A stretch of 61,220 bases of DNA from Ignavibacteriaceae bacterium (GTDB lineage Bacteria; Bacteroidota; Ignavibacteria; Ignavibacteriales; Ignavibacteriaceae): the NCBI GenBank assembly GCA_014860115.1, contig JACZKK010000170.1, positions 1 to 61,220 on the forward strand, in the 5' to 3' direction. This document shows, in pieces, positions 5,749 through 21,653 of the stretch. The translations under genes were made by a program, and so were the position numbers. Under the pieces are notes generated by a model. The model ran no database searches. It was not told the origin of the DNA and saw nothing but the letters and a program-made list of their open reading frames with translations. The stretch's first letter is position 1, and each line of letters starts with the position of its first letter.

Positions 5749-6966
5749 CTATTTAAGCAATATCATCTTCTTTGTTTCAACAAAATTACCTGCCTGAAGT
5801 TTGTAGAAATAAACTCCTGCGGGCAACTGTTCAGGGTACCAGGTTAATTTATATATACCTGACGCTTTTTCTTCATCAACCAATTTTTCTACTTCATTTC
5901 CAATAATGTCATATACTTTAATTGTAACTTGTGAAACAATTGGGACAGAATATTTTATTATCGTAGATGGATTAAATGGATTAGGATAGTTCTGAGATAA
6001 ACTATAGTCATTAGGAATTTCATCAATTGATTTTTCCTCAACGAAAGAGGTACCACCATTTGTAGTTTTGAATATCACACCATTCCAACCGACAATTGTT
6101 CCGAAGTTCTCATTAACAAACGTAACACCATATAAAATATTTAGTGATGCACCTGTTTGCTGTGTCCATGTTGTTCCACCGTCTGTAGTTCTGAGAATCG
6201 TTCCCAACCAACCGACAGCTGTTCCTTTACTTTCATTAATAAAACAAAGATCGTATAGAGGACGTGTTGTTCCACTATTTTCTAATATCCAGTCAATACC
6301 CCCATTTGTTGTTTTAATTATACTTCCATCGTCTCCAACTGCTAAAGCTATATTAATGTCGGAAAAATGAACTCCCTTTAAGTTAGCTGCGACATTTGCA
6401 GAATGATACATCCAGTTTGTTCCACCATTCGTACTTTTAAGAGTTGTTCCTACTTCTCCAACGACTATACCATTATTTTGATCGGTAAATGCCACATCAT
6501 ATAAAACATTAGGTAGTCCACTATTCTGGAAGTTCCATGTTAATCCTCTATCTGTGGTTTTAAAAATTTTATTTCCACCCACTACCCAACCAATATTTAG
6601 GTCAATAAATTCTACTCCATTTAGATCATCACTATATCCACTTGTTTGTATTGTCCATAAAATTCCTCCATTCGTTGTATTTAGTATTGTGCCTCCGTCA
6701 CCAACTGCAGTTCCATTATTTAAATCGATAAAAAAAACATCATTTAAATGATTTGTAGTTCCGCTTGTTTGTAATATCCAAGCTGTACCACCATCCATTG
6801 TTCTTAGAATCGTACCATTCTCTCCAACAACAGTACCCGTGCTTGTATCAACAAACGAAACGCTTAGTAAATCTTCATTTGTTCCACTTGTCTGCTGATA
6901 CCATTGAGGTATAATTGTTTGTGAAATCAATAAAAAGAAAAATAAAATTGTAATTAACTTTTTCAT
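5749..6966 (-). CDS. T9SS-secreted Ycf48-like beta-propeller protein (paralog 1)
   Basis: This 405-residue protein has a signal peptide (to about Pro20), then repeats of about 44 residues across 20-315 with the pattern VxFxDxNxGxAVGxxGTILxTTNGGxxW, characteristic of Ycf48/photosystem II assembly-factor-like beta-propellers. In non-photosynthetic bacteria these are general surface propellers, so no photosynthetic role is implied. The C-terminus is a T9SS sorting domain (SQNYPNPFNPSTIIKYSVP, TIKVYDIIGNEVE, ending KKMILLK). It is a close tandem paralog of the gene at 7031-8266; the sorting domains are nearly identical. GGAGGAG lies just before the ATG, only about 30 bases after the upstream gene's terminator. 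Confidence 0.87.
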   Translation of the reverse strand: MKKLITILFFFLLISQTIIPQWYQQTSGTNEDLLSVSFVDTSTGTVVGENGTILRTMDGGTAWILQTSGTTNHLNDVFFIDLNNGTAVGDGGTILNTTNGGILWTIQTSGYSDDLNGVEFIDLNIGWVVGGNKIFKTTDRGLTWNFQNSGLPNVLYDVAFTDQNNGIVVGEVGTTLKSTNGGTNWMYHSANVAANLKGVHFSDINIALAVGDDGSIIKTTNGGIDWILENSGTTRPLYDLCFINESKGTAVGWLGTILRTTDGGTTWTQQTGASLNILYGVTFVNENFGTIVGWNGVIFKTTNGGTSFVEEKSIDEIPNDYSLSQNYPNPFNPSTIIKYSVPIVSQVTIKVYDIIGNEVEKLVDEEKASGIYKLTWYPEQLPAGVYFYKLQAGNFVETKKMILLK

Positions 6967-6998
6967 AGCTCCTCCATCGAGTTAAAATTAAACATAAA

Positions 6999-7022
6999 AG
7001 CCCCTCTTTTTATTGAGGGGCT
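6999..7022 (-). terminator. Terminator hairpin downstream of the 7031-8266 gene
   Basis: A perfect 8-bp stem AGCCCCTC (6999-7006) / GAGGGGCT (7015-7022) is followed by TTTTA on the minus strand, 8 bases past the stop codon. Confidence 0.8.
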
Positions 7023-7030
7023 AAGTAAAA

Positions 7031-8266
7031 CTATTTAAGTAATACCATTTTCTTTGTCTCAACAAAATTACCTGCCTGAAGTTTGTAGAAATAAACTCCT
7101 GCAGGCAACTGTGCAGCGTACCAGGTTAATTTATATGTACCTGATGCTTTCTCTTCATCTACCAAAGTTTCTATTTCATTTCCAATAACATCAAATACTT
7201 TAATTGTTACTTGGGAAACTATTGGAATAGAATATTTAATTACTGTAGATGGATTATAAGGATTTGGATAATTCTGAGATAAGCTAAAATCATTCGGTGA
7301 TTTATTAACTTTCTCTTCCTCTACAAAAACAACTCCGCCGTTTGTAGTATGGAGAATTGTTCCGTCTTTCCCGACGGCCCAGCCAAAGTTTGAGTCAATA
7401 AAACATACACCATCAAACCATTTTGTGGTTCCACTTTCCTGTATTTCCCAGGCAGTTCCTCCATTTGTTGTTCTGATGATTGTTCCATTCCCACCAACAG
7501 CTGTACCTGTATTAATATCAGTAAACGAAACACAATTTAAAGTATATATTACCCCACTCGCTTGAGTTGTCCAGGTAGTCCCACCATCTGTAGTTCTAAT
7601 TATTTCACCACTTGTACCAACTGCTGTACCATTATTTTCGTCAATAAACGAAACACCAAAGAAAGGATAATTAGCGGTGCTGGTTTGTTCAAACCAAGCT
7701 GCACCACCATTTGTAGTTCTTAAAATTATTTCAGCAAAGTTAGTCCAGTCATAACCAATAGTAGTCCCAACATTAGCATTGACAAAGCACACGCAATATA
7801 AATACTCGGTTGTTCCACTTACTTGTGGGGTCCAGGTTGTTCCACCATTTGTTGTTCTGAGTATTGTTCCATTAACACCAACTACTGTACCGGTATTTGC
7901 ATCTGTGAAGTTAACTTCGTTGAGCCAACTCGTAGTTCCACTATTTTGTAATGTCCAATCAATTCCCCCGTTTGTTGTTCTGACTATCACACCATCATCT
8001 CCAACTGCGGTTCCGAAATTCTCATCAGTGAAGAACACATCCCATAATCGTTTTGTAGTTCCACTTGATTGCAAATTCCAGTTCATTCCGCCATCTGTAG
8101 TTCTTAAAATTGTACCATTTTTTCCAACTGCGGTGCCATTATTTATATCGGTAAATGAGATACTAAGTAAATCCTCAGTTGTATTACTTGTTTGTTGATA
8201 CCATTGAGGTGATATTTCTCGTATAAACAATAAAAGGAAAAACAAAATTGTAAATAAATTTTTCAT
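7031..8266 (-). CDS. T9SS-secreted Ycf48-like beta-propeller protein (paralog 2)
   Basis: This 411-residue protein is a paralog of the 5749-6966 product with the same architecture: signal peptide (to about Pro20), about seven propeller repeats (for example GTAVGKNGTILRTTDGGMNW) and a T9SS sorting domain (SQNYPNPYNPSTVIKYSIP, ending KKMVLLK). The sorting motif has Tyr for the usual Phe. One repeat near residues 165-180 carries a small insertion (TTIGYDWTNFAEIILRTTNG), so the blades are not all equal. It starts with AAGGAGGAG before the ATG and follows the 8283-9104 gene by only 16 bp with no terminator between them, so it may be read from the same transcript. Confidence 0.87.
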   Translation of the reverse strand: MKNLFTILFFLLLFIREISPQWYQQTSNTTEDLLSISFTDINNGTAVGKNGTILRTTDGGMNWNLQSSGTTKRLWDVFFTDENFGTAVGDDGVIVRTTNGGIDWTLQNSGTTSWLNEVNFTDANTGTVVGVNGTILRTTNGGTTWTPQVSGTTEYLYCVCFVNANVGTTIGYDWTNFAEIILRTTNGGAAWFEQTSTANYPFFGVSFIDENNGTAVGTSGEIIRTTDGGTTWTTQASGVIYTLNCVSFTDINTGTAVGGNGTIIRTTNGGTAWEIQESGTTKWFDGVCFIDSNFGWAVGKDGTILHTTNGGVVFVEEEKVNKSPNDFSLSQNYPNPYNPSTVIKYSIPIVSQVTIKVFDVIGNEIETLVDEEKASGTYKLTWYAAQLPAGVYFYKLQAGNFVETKKMVLLK

Positions 8267-15588: not shown

Positions 15589-18500
15589 TTATTTTAGTAG
15601 AATCATCTTCTTTGTCGAAACAAAATCTCCTGCCTTTAGTGAATAGAAATAAATTCCACTTGCCAGATTCCGGAATTCGCCGGAATGACTTTCGAATTTA
15701 ATTTTATATGAACCAGCTATCTGCTCTTCATTAACAAGCGTTGAGACTTCTTTTCCAAGAATATCAAATACTTTCAGAGTTACTAATCCTTTTTCTTTTA
15801 TTGAATATGAAATTATGGTATTCGGATTAAATGGATTTGGATAATTTTGTTCCAGAGCGTAATAGCCGGGAGTACTGATCTCGATTTCAATTATATCAGA
15901 ATATTCAAATGTGCCATTGAAATCAATTTGTTTCAACCGGTAGCTATAATTTCCTGATTGCACATTTTCATCAACAAAAGAATAAGTACGGAATTCGGTA
16001 GTCGTACCGGAACCAGTAACGAATCCGATTTTTTCCCATATGTCGGAAATTTTTCTCTCTACATCAAAACCCGAATTATTAGTTTCTGTAGCTGTTGTCC
16101 ACGTTAAATTGACTTTATTTCCTGAAGCATACCCGGCAAAGGATGTTAGTTCGACAGGAACAGCGACAGTGCCACCGGAAAAACAAACAACTTTGCCATC
16201 GCGTGTTCCGGCTAACATTTCATAGCTGAAGTTTCCGTCTATTGATGGAATTTTGTTTACCGAATACATCCAATCACCTGGAAAAGAATGCATATAAATT
16301 AATGAATCGCCCTTCCCGCTTATACAATAAAAATTTCCATAGCGTGCGGCTGCAAGAACCTCTTCGACTCCATCGTCATTGATATCAGGAATTGTAGCAA
16401 CACCAAATTGATAGTCCATTTGCCATGCCCATAATTGTAAACCTGTAGCACCACTTAAACAATTCAATCCATTTCCGGCGAAGGAAGCAATGAGTACATC
16501 CGGAACCTGATCACTGTTAATATCATTTATCAAAGCAATTTGAATAACACCTGCTGAAGCCCCAAGCGGATAAGTCCAGACAATACTGCCATCAGTTCCA
16601 TTTAAACGATGGATTCTGTTAAAATATTCTGCAGCGATAACATCTGAATTGCCATTCGGTAATGGTAGTTCCAGTAATTCTTTCGGCTCGTACAGCACCA
16701 TCTGTCTCGTCCATAAAGTCTGACCATTTATTCCATTTATTGCTCTGACTGCTAAATCAGTAGTTCCATTGTTGCCGTAAGCAATAACTACGTCTGGATG
16801 ATTATCTCCATTTAGATCATCAATAGATATAATCGTTTTTCCGAATGAAGGATTTGGACCAGGGATGGGATGTTCCCAAATAATATTTCCGTTCCTACCA
16901 TTAAAAAGAAATGCTCTTTGATAACCAGTTCCCTGATCATTGCCATCTGCAATAGCAAGCACATCCTCAACTCCATCACTGTTAAAATCTCTTTGAACAT
17001 CAACGGCTTCAAAATCACCCATATCCCAATTAATATCATCACCATATTGCCAGATGATTTGACCGGTCTTACCACTCAAAGCGTAAATGTGTTCATTACC
17101 ACCACCAACGGCAAGTACGACATCATTATAACCGTCACCGTCGAGATCATTGGCAATTTGTATCGCATCCTGTACTCCATATTCAAAGTTAGCTCCAATT
17201 GATCCGGCGTTACTGCTGCTCATATAAGTTGTAAAAATCCAAATCGGATAAGTTGTTCCTGAAGCAGCACCGTTAAGACACATAGTCCAATAATTTTCTG
17301 TTGAGATTATGACTTCCGGAATTCCATCTCCGGTTATATCATTAATATGTTTTAATCCTTCAATTCTCGGACTTGCGCTTGAAGAATTTGGATGAGGAGG
17401 AACCTGATAATCCCAAAACATATATCCATAGTTATAAGGATTAAAAACACCTATCCCCTGCATAGAAATTTTAGCAACAGGATTAGTAACATCGTTGTTA
17501 CTAATTTTTAAAGTATCGATATAATTTCCAACTTGTGTTGGGTAGAAGTATGCGGTTAATTCAACAGTATCAGTCGAAGGAATGGAGAACGGAAGAGCAG
17601 GTGAACTATAGGTAAATTCAGGTAAATTGAATTGTAAGTCTGGAACTTGCAAAGTCTCATCTCCAATGCTGATTATATTAAATTTCCAGAAAGCAATTCC
17701 CTCTTCACCAACCCAGACATTTCCAAAATTATGCGATGTAGCTGATAATCCAATTCTGGCACCGTTTAAAACTCCTTGCCCTTTCAGGTTAACATTGTTT
17801 ACTAACGAAACCGGATCGTTGCAATATATTTTAAGAAGTCCTTGATAATAAGCATACTGTAATGGTGTAAAATTCACGACAACGTTGTATGAACTTCCTG
17901 CAGGAATATTTATTGGAAAAGTTAGCGGATTAAAAGAATAACCGTTTCCGCTAATTGTAATTGAGTCAATTGTTAGAGTTGCGGTTCCAGTACTATAAAT
18001 TGTCAGATCGTAGTTGAATGTGTTACCAACTGTTGTATTAGGAAAATTTATTGTTGTTACAGGTAATGTGATTTCGGGTGTTCCGCTGCCTTCAAGATCA
18101 TATTTAAACAACTGTCTGCCTGAAGTTGCTCCGACAGGTTCAGCCATTAACCAGAAATAAGTTCCATCCCAGGCAAGCCCTCTTGGATTCTGTCTTACTC
18201 CCGGAGTTTCCGGAACGTGAAATGAAAATAAAATATTTTCTGTATTTAAATCGATAGCATAAATTTTTTCATCATCTCCTTGAAATCCATCCATTACATA
18301 AAATAATGTGTCGCCTTTTACAGTGATTCCTTGAGGCTGTAAACCGATTACAGATATTGTATCAACGATCGCTCTGGCTGCAACGTTTACTTTATACAGT
18401 GCAGCTCTCGCATCCGGAGAATAAACTGAAATCCAAAGTCCATCTCCATCCCAGGCTGCACCACCAAGGACTATATTTGTTACTCCAAATAATTCTGCAG

Positions 18501-18858
18501 TAGGAATTGAATCGATTACAATTCCAGTATTACTGACTTTATACAAATCACATCTGGCCGTTTTCCTTTCAACATACCAAAAATCTGTACCATCAAATGC
18601 CAACCCTTGTGAATAGCTTATCCAAGGAAGATCGAAGTTCAAGACGTCAACCTGATTTCCACTGCTGTTAACTGCATAAATAATCTTCTTCCCTGCTGTT
18701 GATGATGAAGAACTTATCCAGTACTTCCCATTATTATGGACCATTCCGTAACTATAGTCCCAAAATGTTCCGCTCGGCAGATTTACAGTTTCTAACAAAG
18801 TTTGAGAAAATGTCAGAGAGGATGTGAGAAGTAGACAAAAAAGTAATAACTTTTTCAT
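15589..18858 (-). CDS. Large T9SS-secreted protein with FG-GAP repeats
   Basis: This 1089-residue secreted protein has a signal peptide (to about Ser18); a propeller-like region (20-265) with WDGTYFWLMAEP-type repeats; two ASPM/SPD-2/Hydin-like Ig modules (about 270-470; FPNTTVGNTFNYDLTIYSTG, NFGNVWVGEEG); and a long FG-GAP/VCBS region (about 490-880) with DITGDGIPEVIIS, DLDGDGYNDVVLA, DFNSDGVEDVLAI and DINDDGVEEVLAA. An Ig-like PVELTSFAGYASGNKVNLTW module follows, and then the T9SS sorting domain (EQNYPNPFNPNTIISYSI, ending KKMILLK). The sorting domain carries a 25-bp palindromic repeat at 15665-15689 that makes it about five residues longer than the others here. It is convergent with the sigma-54 regulator gene. 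Likely a cell-surface protein; no catalytic motif is visible. Confidence 0.85.
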   Translation of the reverse strand: MKKLLLFCLLLTSSLTFSQTLLETVNLPSGTFWDYSYGMVHNNGKYWISSSSSTAGKKIIYAVNSSGNQVDVLNFDLPWISYSQGLAFDGTDFWYVERKTARCDLYKVSNTGIVIDSIPTAELFGVTNIVLGGAAWDGDGLWISVYSPDARAALYKVNVAARAIVDTISVIGLQPQGITVKGDTLFYVMDGFQGDDEKIYAIDLNTENILFSFHVPETPGVRQNPRGLAWDGTYFWLMAEPVGATSGRQLFKYDLEGSGTPEITLPVTTINFPNTTVGNTFNYDLTIYSTGTATLTIDSITISGNGYSFNPLTFPINIPAGSSYNVVVNFTPLQYAYYQGLLKIYCNDPVSLVNNVNLKGQGVLNGARIGLSATSHNFGNVWVGEEGIAFWKFNIISIGDETLQVPDLQFNLPEFTYSSPALPFSIPSTDTVELTAYFYPTQVGNYIDTLKISNNDVTNPVAKISMQGIGVFNPYNYGYMFWDYQVPPHPNSSSASPRIEGLKHINDITGDGIPEVIISTENYWTMCLNGAASGTTYPIWIFTTYMSSSNAGSIGANFEYGVQDAIQIANDLDGDGYNDVVLAVGGGNEHIYALSGKTGQIIWQYGDDINWDMGDFEAVDVQRDFNSDGVEDVLAIADGNDQGTGYQRAFLFNGRNGNIIWEHPIPGPNPSFGKTIISIDDLNGDNHPDVVIAYGNNGTTDLAVRAINGINGQTLWTRQMVLYEPKELLELPLPNGNSDVIAAEYFNRIHRLNGTDGSIVWTYPLGASAGVIQIALINDINSDQVPDVLIASFAGNGLNCLSGATGLQLWAWQMDYQFGVATIPDINDDGVEEVLAAARYGNFYCISGKGDSLIYMHSFPGDWMYSVNKIPSIDGNFSYEMLAGTRDGKVVCFSGGTVAVPVELTSFAGYASGNKVNLTWTTATETNNSGFDVERKISDIWEKIGFVTGSGTTTEFRTYSFVDENVQSGNYSYRLKQIDFNGTFEYSDIIEIEISTPGYYALEQNYPNPFNPNTIISYSIKEKGLVTLKVFDILGKEVSTLVNEEQIAGSYKIKFESHSGEFRNLASGIYFYSLKAGDFVSTKKMILLK
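15665..15689. repeat. 25-bp palindromic repeat inside a T9SS sorting domain
   Basis: The sequence contains ATTCCGG and CCGGAAT arms and ends in GAATGAC, the same family as the copies at 20785-20832. It is read in the coding strand as HSGEFRN between the KIKFES and LASGIYFY strands of the sorting domain, in the opposite orientation to the dcyD-like copies. Confidence 0.7.
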
Positions 18859-19881: not shown

Positions 19882-20889
19882 TTAAACAAATTTTAGATAG
19901 GGCTTCTGCTTAGAGAATACTCCAAAAATCCCACCTGTGTGAAGGAAAACAACGCGCTTCCCTTTACCTTTCTTCAAAATCAAATCATTATAAGCACAAA
20001 ATGCTTTACCTGTATAAGTCGGATCAAAAAGAATTCCCGTTGACCGAGAAAATTTAGTAATCAGTTTTAACTTTCCATCAGTAATATTTTTATAGCCTTC
20101 AGAAGAATATCCATCAATTATTTCCAGATTACTTTTATCAATTTTGCAGGAAAGCTTAAAATCCAGAACTGCTCCTTCTGCAAGTTGGAGTATTTTTTTT
20201 CTTATAAATTCTTTCTGATGAAGTACATTCACAGCATAGACTTTGACTTTGGTTTTATTCAATGCTGCCCCGACTAAAAGTCCTGCCGCCGTTCCGCCAG
20301 ATCCGCAAGCAGAAAAAATTCCATCAATATTTTTAAGATCAATTTGTTTTTTCAATTCATTCATAAAAGAGATATAACCCCAGATTCCTAATGTTGAAGA
20401 ACCACCAGCCGGAATAACGTAAACTCTTTTTCCTTTTTTAATTAACTTAGTTCTTTCATCAGTCATTATCTCGTCAACATTTTCGAATTCATCTCTATCC
20501 AGATAAGTTATATCAGCACCATACATTTTATTTAGAAATAGATTTCCGTCTGCTTGCTTTTTATCTTTTCCCCACAAGAATAATTTTGTTTTAATTCCAA
20601 GTTTAGCTGCAGCAGATGCAGTTGCACGAGCATGGTTAGATTGATCTCCACCGCAAGTAAAAATAATATCTGCTTTTTCTCTTTTAGCTTCATAAAGCAA
20701 GTACTCAAGTTTTCTTATTTTGTTTCCGAGAAAATCTGAACCTGTATAATCATCTCTCTTGATTAAGAACTCCTTAGCACTTGAGTCATTCCGGCTGTTC
20801 CGGAACCTGTCATTCCGACTTGTTCGGAATCTGACTACCTCTAATGGCGTTGGTAAATGAGCTAGATTAATTTTTTGAGGAATTTTCAT
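19882..20889 (-). CDS. PLP-dependent D-cysteine desulfhydrase / ACC deaminase family protein
   Basis: This fold-type II PLP enzyme has about 335 residues. Family hallmarks are LAHLPTPLE at the start, IKRDDYTG, the PLP-lysine segment GNKIRKLEYLL, the substrate-binding CGGDQSNHARATA loop and the phosphate-binding SACGSGGTAAGL. Likely reactions are D-cysteine to pyruvate, sulfide and ammonia, or ACC deamination; they cannot be separated here. I chose the ATG at 20889 because it overlaps the kdsB stop as ATGA; an upstream ATG at 20916 would add nine basic residues. A tandem 24-bp palindromic repeat (20785-20832) adds RFRTSRND and RFRNSRND between the first strand and IKRDD, making this region longer than expected. 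The gene still looks intact. Confidence 0.85.
   Translation of the reverse strand: MKIPQKINLAHLPTPLEVVRFRTSRNDRFRNSRNDSSAKEFLIKRDDYTGSDFLGNKIRKLEYLLYEAKREKADIIFTCGGDQSNHARATASAAAKLGIKTKLFLWGKDKKQADGNLFLNKMYGADITYLDRDEFENVDEIMTDERTKLIKKGKRVYVIPAGGSSTLGIWGYISFMNELKKQIDLKNIDGIFSACGSGGTAAGLLVGAALNKTKVKVYAVNVLHQKEFIRKKILQLAEGAVLDFKLSCKIDKSNLEIIDGYSSEGYKNITDGKLKLITKFSRSTGILFDPTYTGKAFCAYNDLILKKGKGKRVVFLHTGGIFGVFSKQKPYLKFV
20785..20832. repeat. Two tandem 24-bp palindromic repeats inside a coding sequence
   Basis: Each unit begins GTCATTCCG on the plus strand and forms a short hairpin (TTCCGG/CCGGAA in one, ATTCCGA/TCGGAAT in the other). At 24 bp the units keep the reading frame and encode the paired octapeptides RFRTSRND and RFRNSRND. 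Confidence 0.85.
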
Positions 20890-21653
20890 TTTTCTTTTTC
20901 TCTTTTCTGAAGCCATTTGTAAAAAGTTCTCGCACGTTTCAGATCTTCCTGAGTATCCACACTAATGCTTTCATATTCCGTTTCAACTACTTTGATCCTG
21001 ATATCGTTTTCAAGCATTCTTAGTTGCTCTAACATTTCAGTTTTTTCAAGATCTGTTTGCTTGAGGCTTGTAAATTTTAATAATGCTTTTCTGCGAAAAA
21101 CATAAAGACCAATATGTTTGTAATAATCTGTTATCTCCAATGCTGCTGAATCTGAAATTGCACTCCTTGTGAATGGAATTGGAGAACGTGAGAAGTAAAG
21201 TGCATAATTATTATAATCGAAAACAACTTTAACAACATCAGGCGAACGGAGTTCTTTTAGAGTCTGAATTTGTTTAATTAAAGTGGTTACTTCTATTGAT
21301 TTGTCAAAAAGCAATGGTTCAATAGCCTGGTCAATCATTTCACCATGTATGAACGGTTCATCTCCCTGAATATTGGCAATGATATCGGCTTCTTTATAAA
21401 TTTTGGAAACGTAAGCAATCCTATCAGAACCACTTGCAATTTCTTTGGGAGTTTCAATTACATCCGCACCAAAACCTCTTGCCACTGATGCAACTTTAGC
21501 ATCATCAACAGCTAAAATTAACTTTTCAATCAGTTTTGATTTCTTTGCACTTTCATAGGTATGCTGAATCATTGGTTTATCACCAATCATAGCGAGCGGC
21601 TTACCCATCAAACGAGTCGATGCAAAACGGGCTGGGATAATTCCAATAATCAT
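20886..21653 (-). CDS. kdsB: 3-deoxy-manno-octulosonate cytidylyltransferase (CMP-KDO synthetase)
   Basis: This 255-residue cytoplasmic enzyme activates KDO with CTP to give CMP-KDO for lipopolysaccharide core synthesis. The N-terminus IIGIIPARFASTRLMGKPLA is the nucleotide-binding signature; further family segments are FGADVIETPKEIASGSDRI, NIQGDEPFI and YFSRSPIPF, with KHIGLYVFRRKAL later. Length is normal. It is followed by the PLP-enzyme gene with an ATGA overlap, so the two are coupled despite unrelated roles. Its presence shows an LPS-type Gram-negative envelope. Confidence 0.96.
   Translation of the reverse strand: MIIGIIPARFASTRLMGKPLAMIGDKPMIQHTYESAKKSKLIEKLILAVDDAKVASVARGFGADVIETPKEIASGSDRIAYVSKIYKEADIIANIQGDEPFIHGEMIDQAIEPLLFDKSIEVTTLIKQIQTLKELRSPDVVKVVFDYNNYALYFSRSPIPFTRSAISDSAALEITDYYKHIGLYVFRRKALLKFTSLKQTDLEKTEMLEQLRMLENDIRIKVVETEYESISVDTQEDLKRARTFYKWLQKREKEK

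Follow-up and report, generated by a model that had tools for sequence, protein, structure and literature searches.

The stretch of DNA analysed here (the window, 61,220 nucleotides of a contig from an Ignavibacteriaceae bacterium) contains an enzyme gene with two adjacent 24-bp palindromes inside its reading frame. The locus raises the question of how such DNA came to lie within a protein-coding gene, how it has been kept there, and whether it is an isolated case. The host gene (19882..20916, minus strand) is an ORF of 344 aa, and encodes a D-cysteine desulfhydrase / ACC deaminase-like PLP enzyme. It matched PF00291 (1.4e-36), and its best NCBIfam match was the D-cysteine desulfhydrase family TIGR01275 (5.5e-80), at 269.1 bits against a cut-off of 289.4. 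The AF2 model of the protein had a mean pLDDT of 89.7, and its top PDB matches were the D-cysteine desulfhydrases 7ysk and 7ysl, with 7ysk ranking first. An earlier note on this DNA had assigned the gene to the D-cysteine-desulfhydrase-like PLP enzymes, and the Pfam, below-cut-off TIGR01275 and 7ysk matches agree with that assignment. The same note had described an in-frame, protein-coding palindromic insert in an organism of the FCB group. This also holds, as the nearest named relatives of the enzyme come from Ignavibacteriales, Melioribacteraceae and other Ignavibacteria/Bacteroidetes MAGs.

We examined the two palindromes, which had been read as a pair of 24-bp hairpin units at 20785-20832 encoding RFRTSRND-RFRNSRND; sequence, ORF and folding all confirmed this. 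Unit A (GTCATTCCGGCTGTTCCGGAACCT; 20785..20808, plus strand) encodes RFRNSRND on the minus strand, while unit B (GTCATTCCGACTTGTTCGGAATCT; 20809..20832, plus strand) lies head to tail with it and encodes RFRTSRND on the minus strand. Each unit folds as a hairpin, and a 67-nt stretch over the units gave -21 kcal/mol (z = -2.37; 6 of 200 shuffles were as good). A search of the window for known structured RNAs returned no Rfam match at the gathering score. Both a 25-nt unit and the 48-nt stretch of the window leave five of the six frames open; with the TGAC end included, four of the six remain open. The pair had been thought to have arisen by duplication of one unit. This part of the earlier reading did not survive, since A and B are identical at 19 of 24 positions, the changes in the stem among the five differing positions are paired, and an exact 28 bp from 20809 (unit B) is found again on contig 163 (G000:C163:15021, L022). 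With one unit differing from its neighbour and identical to a distant copy, plain duplication is unlikely, and A and B are different variants of a repeat family. The closest other copy of unit A is at L016 (contig 95), and another head-to-tail pair of differing units was observed in the same genome at L014.

We then compared the enzyme with its relatives. A match was present in 49 of 59 genomes, and the comparison was made with 29 relatives, leaving out nine more matches of at least 48% identity. The protein alignment showed a 15-residue insert in the window enzyme that was absent from all 29 of these order-level relatives. In the DNA alignment, all four congeners aligned (L036-L039, among which L038 has an internal stop in the enzyme gene) had a 45-bp gap with collinear flanks; the fifth congener, G004, gave no enzyme match. 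The net insertion of 45 bp lies at 20781..20825 (minus strand), a placement that is ambiguous by a few bases, and it preserves the frame. No target-site duplication, as would mark a MITE or an IS-derived element, was visible in the congener gap alignment, where the flanks have diverged (tblastn identity 68-77%). When we searched for RFRTSRND within two substitutions in sets of 36 and 30 proteins, only the window protein contained it. The spacing from PTP to KRDD was 28 residues in the window enzyme and 13 in all 29 order-level relatives; in wider relatives (34 measurable of 35) it was 13-22, which indicates that this loop is naturally elastic, and the window value was greater than in every relative measured. 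The loop had been estimated at about nine residues longer than usual for the family. It is indeed longer, by 15 residues against close relatives and by 6-15 against the wider family. In the model, the insert (residues 31-47) is predicted to form the loop between the first two strands (25-30 and 48-53), with low model confidence over the insert (blocks at 58 and 69). Of the checks suggested in the earlier note, the alignment to relatives and the modelling therefore gave residues absent from the relatives examined and a predicted loop between two strands.

We also evaluated the unit as a repeat in the 3.93-Mb genome assembly (222 contigs, estimated contamination 3.56%). The pattern GTCATTCCGN{3,12}CGGAA gave 34 exact matches and the looser pattern GTCATTCCN{5,15}GGAAT gave 50, compared to 0 for the reversed control in both cases. 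Combining both patterns gave 55 distinct places. The stems differ among copies by paired changes (GG..CC, GA..TC, GTG..CAC), and on contigs C80, C103, C208 and C221 the unit forms inverted pairs with a spacing of about 20 bp, which resemble REPINs. The palindrome unit is thus a dispersed genomic repeat, present above chance, and the genome search that had been suggested as a check did find other copies. Neither of the two outcomes named beforehand as speaking against the reading (the same residues in repeat-free relatives, or no other copies) was seen. The looser pattern was present in 55 of the 59 genomes (this one included), with 1 to 110 copies each. The reversed control gave 0 to 3 per genome, so that low counts in relatives are at chance level; the informative higher counts were 50 in this genome, and 23, 19 and 15 in the congeners G002, G003 and G004. 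In another genome, G034, there were 110 matches, and nearly all among the matches listed were GTCATTCCCACGAAAGTGGGAAT, many of them near contig ends. This suggests that the assembly of G034 is broken by a longer repeat. Elsewhere in the window, positions 6101-8155 hold nine degenerate direct repeats with a spacing of mostly 123 bp.

The closest described class for the unit is the CGTC superfamily of REPs, which fits best; we file it there as the closest class, and not as a certified member. In the available text of Di Nocera et al. 2013 (PMC3733652), REPs are divided into GTAG and CGTC superfamilies, the CGTC repeats occur in five phyla (Chlorobi and Bacteroidetes among them), in-frame intragenic CGTC copies are listed for several species, and no transposase is given for CGTC. 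As described there, the CGTC REPs share with our unit a short palindrome with a (C/T)GTC-type tag, an AT-start stem and a small loop, many dispersed copies (55 in this genome) with some in frame inside ORFs, and the lack of an associated transposase gene, the four Y1_Tnp loci here having no GTCATTCC repeat in their flanks. There are also departures. The class has CGTC, TGTC or CCTC as an unpaired tag at one end; in unit B the GTC follows T (TGTC), in keeping with this, whereas in unit A it follows A (AGTC); in the copies shown the base before GTC is A, T or C, with A the commonest in sorting domains. The window units have stems of 6-7 bp and a loop of 5 (partly by eye), compared to 8-9 bp and 4-5 in that account, while other copies in the genome such as GTCATTCCCGCGAAAGCGGGAAT have a stem of 8 and a loop of 4 (by eye). 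Both window units continue with CTG, whereas the short unpaired tails described are mostly CCA; the three bases after GGAAT among the 50 copies in the genome were CCA in 11, CTG in 14 and CTA in 14. The units stand head to tail in the window and at L014, an arrangement that the available account reports as negligible for CGTC REPs (head-to-head pairs predominate), although some inverted pairs do occur in our genome.

The earlier note had likened the insert to Rickettsia palindromic elements. The likeness stands for in-frame insertion, since RPE-1, RPE-4 and RPE-6 (Ogata, Claverie, cited in PMC3733652) are likewise in-frame palindromic inserts in otherwise normal proteins, and here too the genes have homologs without the insert. 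It has to be narrowed to RPE-4 and RPE-6, which in that source, as far as it was available, are CGTC-4 and CGTC-1, respectively; RPE-1 is described there as a longer element, and on the same description the Rickettsia elements belong to another phylum. The available text of a Caldithrix paper that joins the terms REP and Ignavibacteria concerns an unrelated 18-nt motif. Taken alone, the enzyme insert is a further instance of the already described intragenic REP phenomenon.

REPIN/RAYT systems (GTAG REPs with a REP-associated tyrosine transposase) are also similar in having short palindromes, inverted pairs and, as in this genome, RAYT-type genes. We observed four Y1_Tnp matches in the genome. 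Three of the proteins were scanned; two were RAYT-like (79.7 and 81.9, against a cut-off of 80 for the REP-associated transposase) and one was of IS200 type. Unlike in REPIN/RAYT systems, the RAYT-like loci here lack the GTCATTCC repeat on their flanks, and we rejected RAYT as the mobiliser of this repeat; the flanks of all four Y1_Tnp loci yielded no GTCATTCC repeat, and one weak ATTCC..GGAAT match was seen at L034. One RAYT-like gene (L033:1385-1928, G000:C180) has CCTCAGGC/GCCTGAGG hairpins on both sides, and this gene with the CCTCAGGC hairpins is a possible transposase-REP pair. A divergent sorting tail with THSGEVRN (L031:377-757) lies near an IS200-type transposase gene.

When we examined where the 55 copies lie, convincing genes accounted for 21 of them. 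T9SS sorting domains hold 17, and the PLP enzyme and a family-2 glycosyltransferase on contig 185 have 2 each. Another 32 were outside any ORF or in untrusted frames, and the copies on contigs 35 and 70, tried as in-gene inserts, probably match by chance, in what seems to be ordinary coding sequence. The window itself holds one of the 17. It lies at 15667..15689 (minus strand) and encodes SHSGEFRN in a T9SS C-terminal sorting domain (15601..15843, minus strand; profile matches to TIGR04183 / PF18962) of a 1089-aa protein (15589..18858, minus strand) with ASH/Hydin-type, FG-GAP and Por_Secre_tail matches. Compared with the insert-free congener ortholog L277, the loop with this copy has 5 additional residues (15 nt), while in a second congener ortholog, L276, the loop is occupied by another, longer insert. 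The earlier note had reported a single case; that case is real, but the copy at 15667-15689 had been missed, and with it the main pattern, which is repeated landing in T9SS sorting domains. Taking 280 domains of 240 bp, 0.94 copies would be expected in sorting domains, compared to the 17 of 55 observed (P 3e-17). Of these, 15 are flanked by the strand that ends in ...EVEF on one side and by LxSGIYFY on the other, and two divergent tails (contigs 34 and 211) carry theirs at the corresponding place; the copy on contig 149, read by eye, lies at the end of its contig. Two starting frames are used (SHSGEVRN or SHSGLSGI, and SSFRLVRN), and all 17 copies are in sense orientation.

The glycosyltransferase (L025:1274-2206, G000:C185) has a frame that stays open for 311 aa, up to the end of the contig, and carries the palindrome-like in-frame stretches VIPANEVRQESTADSGLRRND, LPTGQAG, SDSGPVFTSFRQGKQARMTE and DSGSSSGMT. 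Its loop inserts differ from those of its relatives at the same loops.

A similar concentration was observed in the one-contig congener G002, where sorting domains hold 10 of 23 copies, compared to 0.4 expected. Six are in sense orientation at the same loop as in our genome and four are antisense at another loop, as in VIRFE[IPGQARND]NVLVTLK. Neighbouring paralogs form two groups of three, and we therefore also counted six events, which is still well above 0.4 (P 2e-6). Two more copies in G002 lie outside sorting domains, in a paralog pair (SHSGLTGI). The sorting-domain share was 3/15 in G004 and 1/15 sampled of 19 in G003, and in other genera it was 1/9 in G018, 1/11 sampled of 23 in G015 and 0/10 sampled of 28 in G022; the survey in other genera was sampled and demanded an ORF of 110 aa, so that these shares are lower bounds. 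The available account in PMC3733652 has no counterpart to this concentration for CGTC REPs, and a literature search (open-licence full texts) gave no publication that deals with REPs in sorting domains of the T9SS. As far as these searches reach, a repeat concentrated in a few loops of T9SS sorting domains is new.

To describe the loops, we aligned 174 sorting domains of this genome over an 80-column core. The set comprised 150 of 280 candidates, scored best first, plus the carriers found by the repeat, with 4 rows dropped, and is thus not a fair sample. Inserts of at least 3 residues were confined to three places, with 18 at site 1, 40 at site 2 and 8 at site 3. Several short length variants among the 66 insert stretches (TNNAG, NDAAG) are probably not palindromes. 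A hairpin scan caught 15 of the 66 (control 1/248); as it is weak on long imperfect palindromes, we did not use it as a census. The sense-oriented copies of our repeat described above are at site 2 (17/17 in this genome, 6/6 in G002). Site 1 holds, for example, the repeats GTCACCCTGAGCGAAGTCGAAGGGT (VTLSEVEGS) and GTCATTGTGAGCGAAGCGAAGCAATC (VIVSEAKQS), and a pattern for these gave 16 copies compared to 0 for the control, four of which coincide by coordinates with inserts in L007, L016, L017 and L124. A different palindrome, TGCCTGCCGGCAGGCA-like, encodes inserts of the LPTGRQG/LPAGRQG type (L001, L006, L018, L024, L107, L162), often directly after the GTCATTCC unit, and the core of the CCTCAGGC hairpin is present in the inserts of L122 and L128. 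In the RgpB CTD, according to the available text of PMC4804311, s1-s2 and s6-s7 are exposed hairpins and a long loop joins s5-s6. Its authors speculate on a role in sorting for the s3-s4 and s4-s5 loops, which are unusual. Going by strand order, sites 1, 2 and 3 would correspond to s1-s2, s5-s6 and s6-s7 of this domain. The AF2 model of the window sorting domain was poor (pLDDT 54.3) and was not relied on.

Taking these observations together, we consider it highly probable that two CGTC-REP-like palindrome copies entered the enzyme as a net 45-bp insertion and were kept in a tolerant loop, and that the same family repeatedly entered T9SS sorting domains. The most likely reading is one of selfish palindromic DNA that is kept where loops tolerate insertion. 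The 48-bp stretch represents two head-to-tail copies of a small, non-autonomous 24-bp palindrome scattered in this genome and its congeners, and copying probably proceeds via a single-stranded hairpin, either with the help of a transposase supplied in trans or through strand switching led by microhomology. The alignment shows entry into the enzyme gene by the net 45-bp insertion, which would have been retained because the gene lengthened by a net multiple of three and the encoded peptide falls in the loop between the first two strands; that placement is as predicted by the model, and the loop is presumably tolerant. The net changes of 45 nt in the enzyme and 15 nt in the window sorting domain are smaller than full units, indicating that the repeat ends overlap or replace ancestral bases. 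The sorting domains, on the domain alignments, would have been entered repeatedly at two loops by this repeat family, with other palindromic families in those two loops and in a third. Inserts that broke the frame or the fold would then have been lost, and the repeat-encoded peptides are probably near neutral.

One observation counts against a view based on loop tolerance, namely the 17 copies in sorting domains compared to 4 in all other convincing genes; if surface loops were simply tolerant, such a skew would not obviously follow. We tentatively entertain, as a possibility that falls short of our favoured reading, that several unrelated palindrome families truly land by preference in sorting domains, with the secretion-signal repertoire being rewritten by selfish hairpins. 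Such a preference may perhaps act through short matches of the loop DNA to the repeat ends, for which we noted, by eye, ATTCC (Ile-Pro) at site 1 and GTCA or AATCT at site 2.

The skew could also be an echo of paralogy, if duplication and gene conversion had carried a few founding inserts through the paralogous sorting domains, which number 150 or more. We built a tree from the core codons of the domains with the loops left out; the rows are short, and the tree is noisy. The 19 site-2 carriers required 14 changes (200 shuffles: mean 18.3, minimum 15), the 16 strict site-2 carriers 15, and the 18 site-1 carriers 10 (shuffle minimum 15). The carrier label thus clusters somewhat, beyond the shuffles at both sites, so that inheritance, or recombination between sorting domains, accounts for part of the spread. 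Of the 19 site-2 carriers, 7 have another carrier as their nearest paralog, and in G002 three neighbouring paralogs share one common insert, twice. However, the nearest paralog is a non-carrier for the other 12, and carriers vary in their left flanks, starting frames (SHSG and SFR types) and cores (21- and 22-bp). Inserts of other palindrome families occupy the same loops, and orthologs carry different inserts. L024 and two paralogs from its own contig carry different inserts at 90% similarity of their core DNA. We consider a spread from a few founders doubtful as the source of the hot spot. With changes inflated by the noisy tree, the sorting-domain inserts appear to reflect some inheritance plus many separate gains or losses.

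We think it unlikely that the inserts are under selection, with peptides that alter the enzyme or diversify secretion signals. The strong clustering of copies within the sorting domains of two genomes, which recurs in the samples from four of five further genomes, and the invariable sense orientation at site 2 would fit such a role. In contrast, the inserts vary in sequence, frame and length, most sorting domains have none, and the enzyme insert is in this genome alone (30 proteins compared), in a low-confidence region of the model. The available text of PMC3733652 also reads insertion in unrelated proteins as speaking against functional constraint, with repair genes excepted.

An artefact of assembly or decay, in which the gene would be a pseudogene or the repeat mis-assembled, might be suspected from the 222 contigs and the estimated contamination. 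It is very improbable, as the ORF is full length and conserved family residues are kept (79 columns identical in all 17 aligned rows, window included), units A and B differ, and inserts of like kind occur in a one-contig congener. Ordinary loop-length variation with a local tandem repeat and no mobile DNA could draw on the 13-22 residues of distant relatives, but it can practically be dismissed, given a window spacing beyond that of all relatives measured, DNA that recurs genome-wide while the reversed control has no matches, the gap in congeners, and insert residues not found in the relatives compared, which lack the repeat.

Selfish palindromic DNA retained in tolerant loops thus remains our preferred reading. 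Intragenic REPs are known but thinly documented; the present locus, with its congeners, offers a case of an enzyme gaining 15 residues from DNA hairpins. The paired orthologs with and without an insert are suited to testing the neutrality of repeat-encoded peptides. The 150 or more paralogous sorting domains, with inserts at three loops only (174 examined), amount to a natural insertion scan of the T9SS signal, and the pattern predicts loops that the secretion machinery does not read. If preferential landing is true, the sites would mark the loops that are free to vary (s1-s2, s5-s6, s6-s7) as against those that are fixed.
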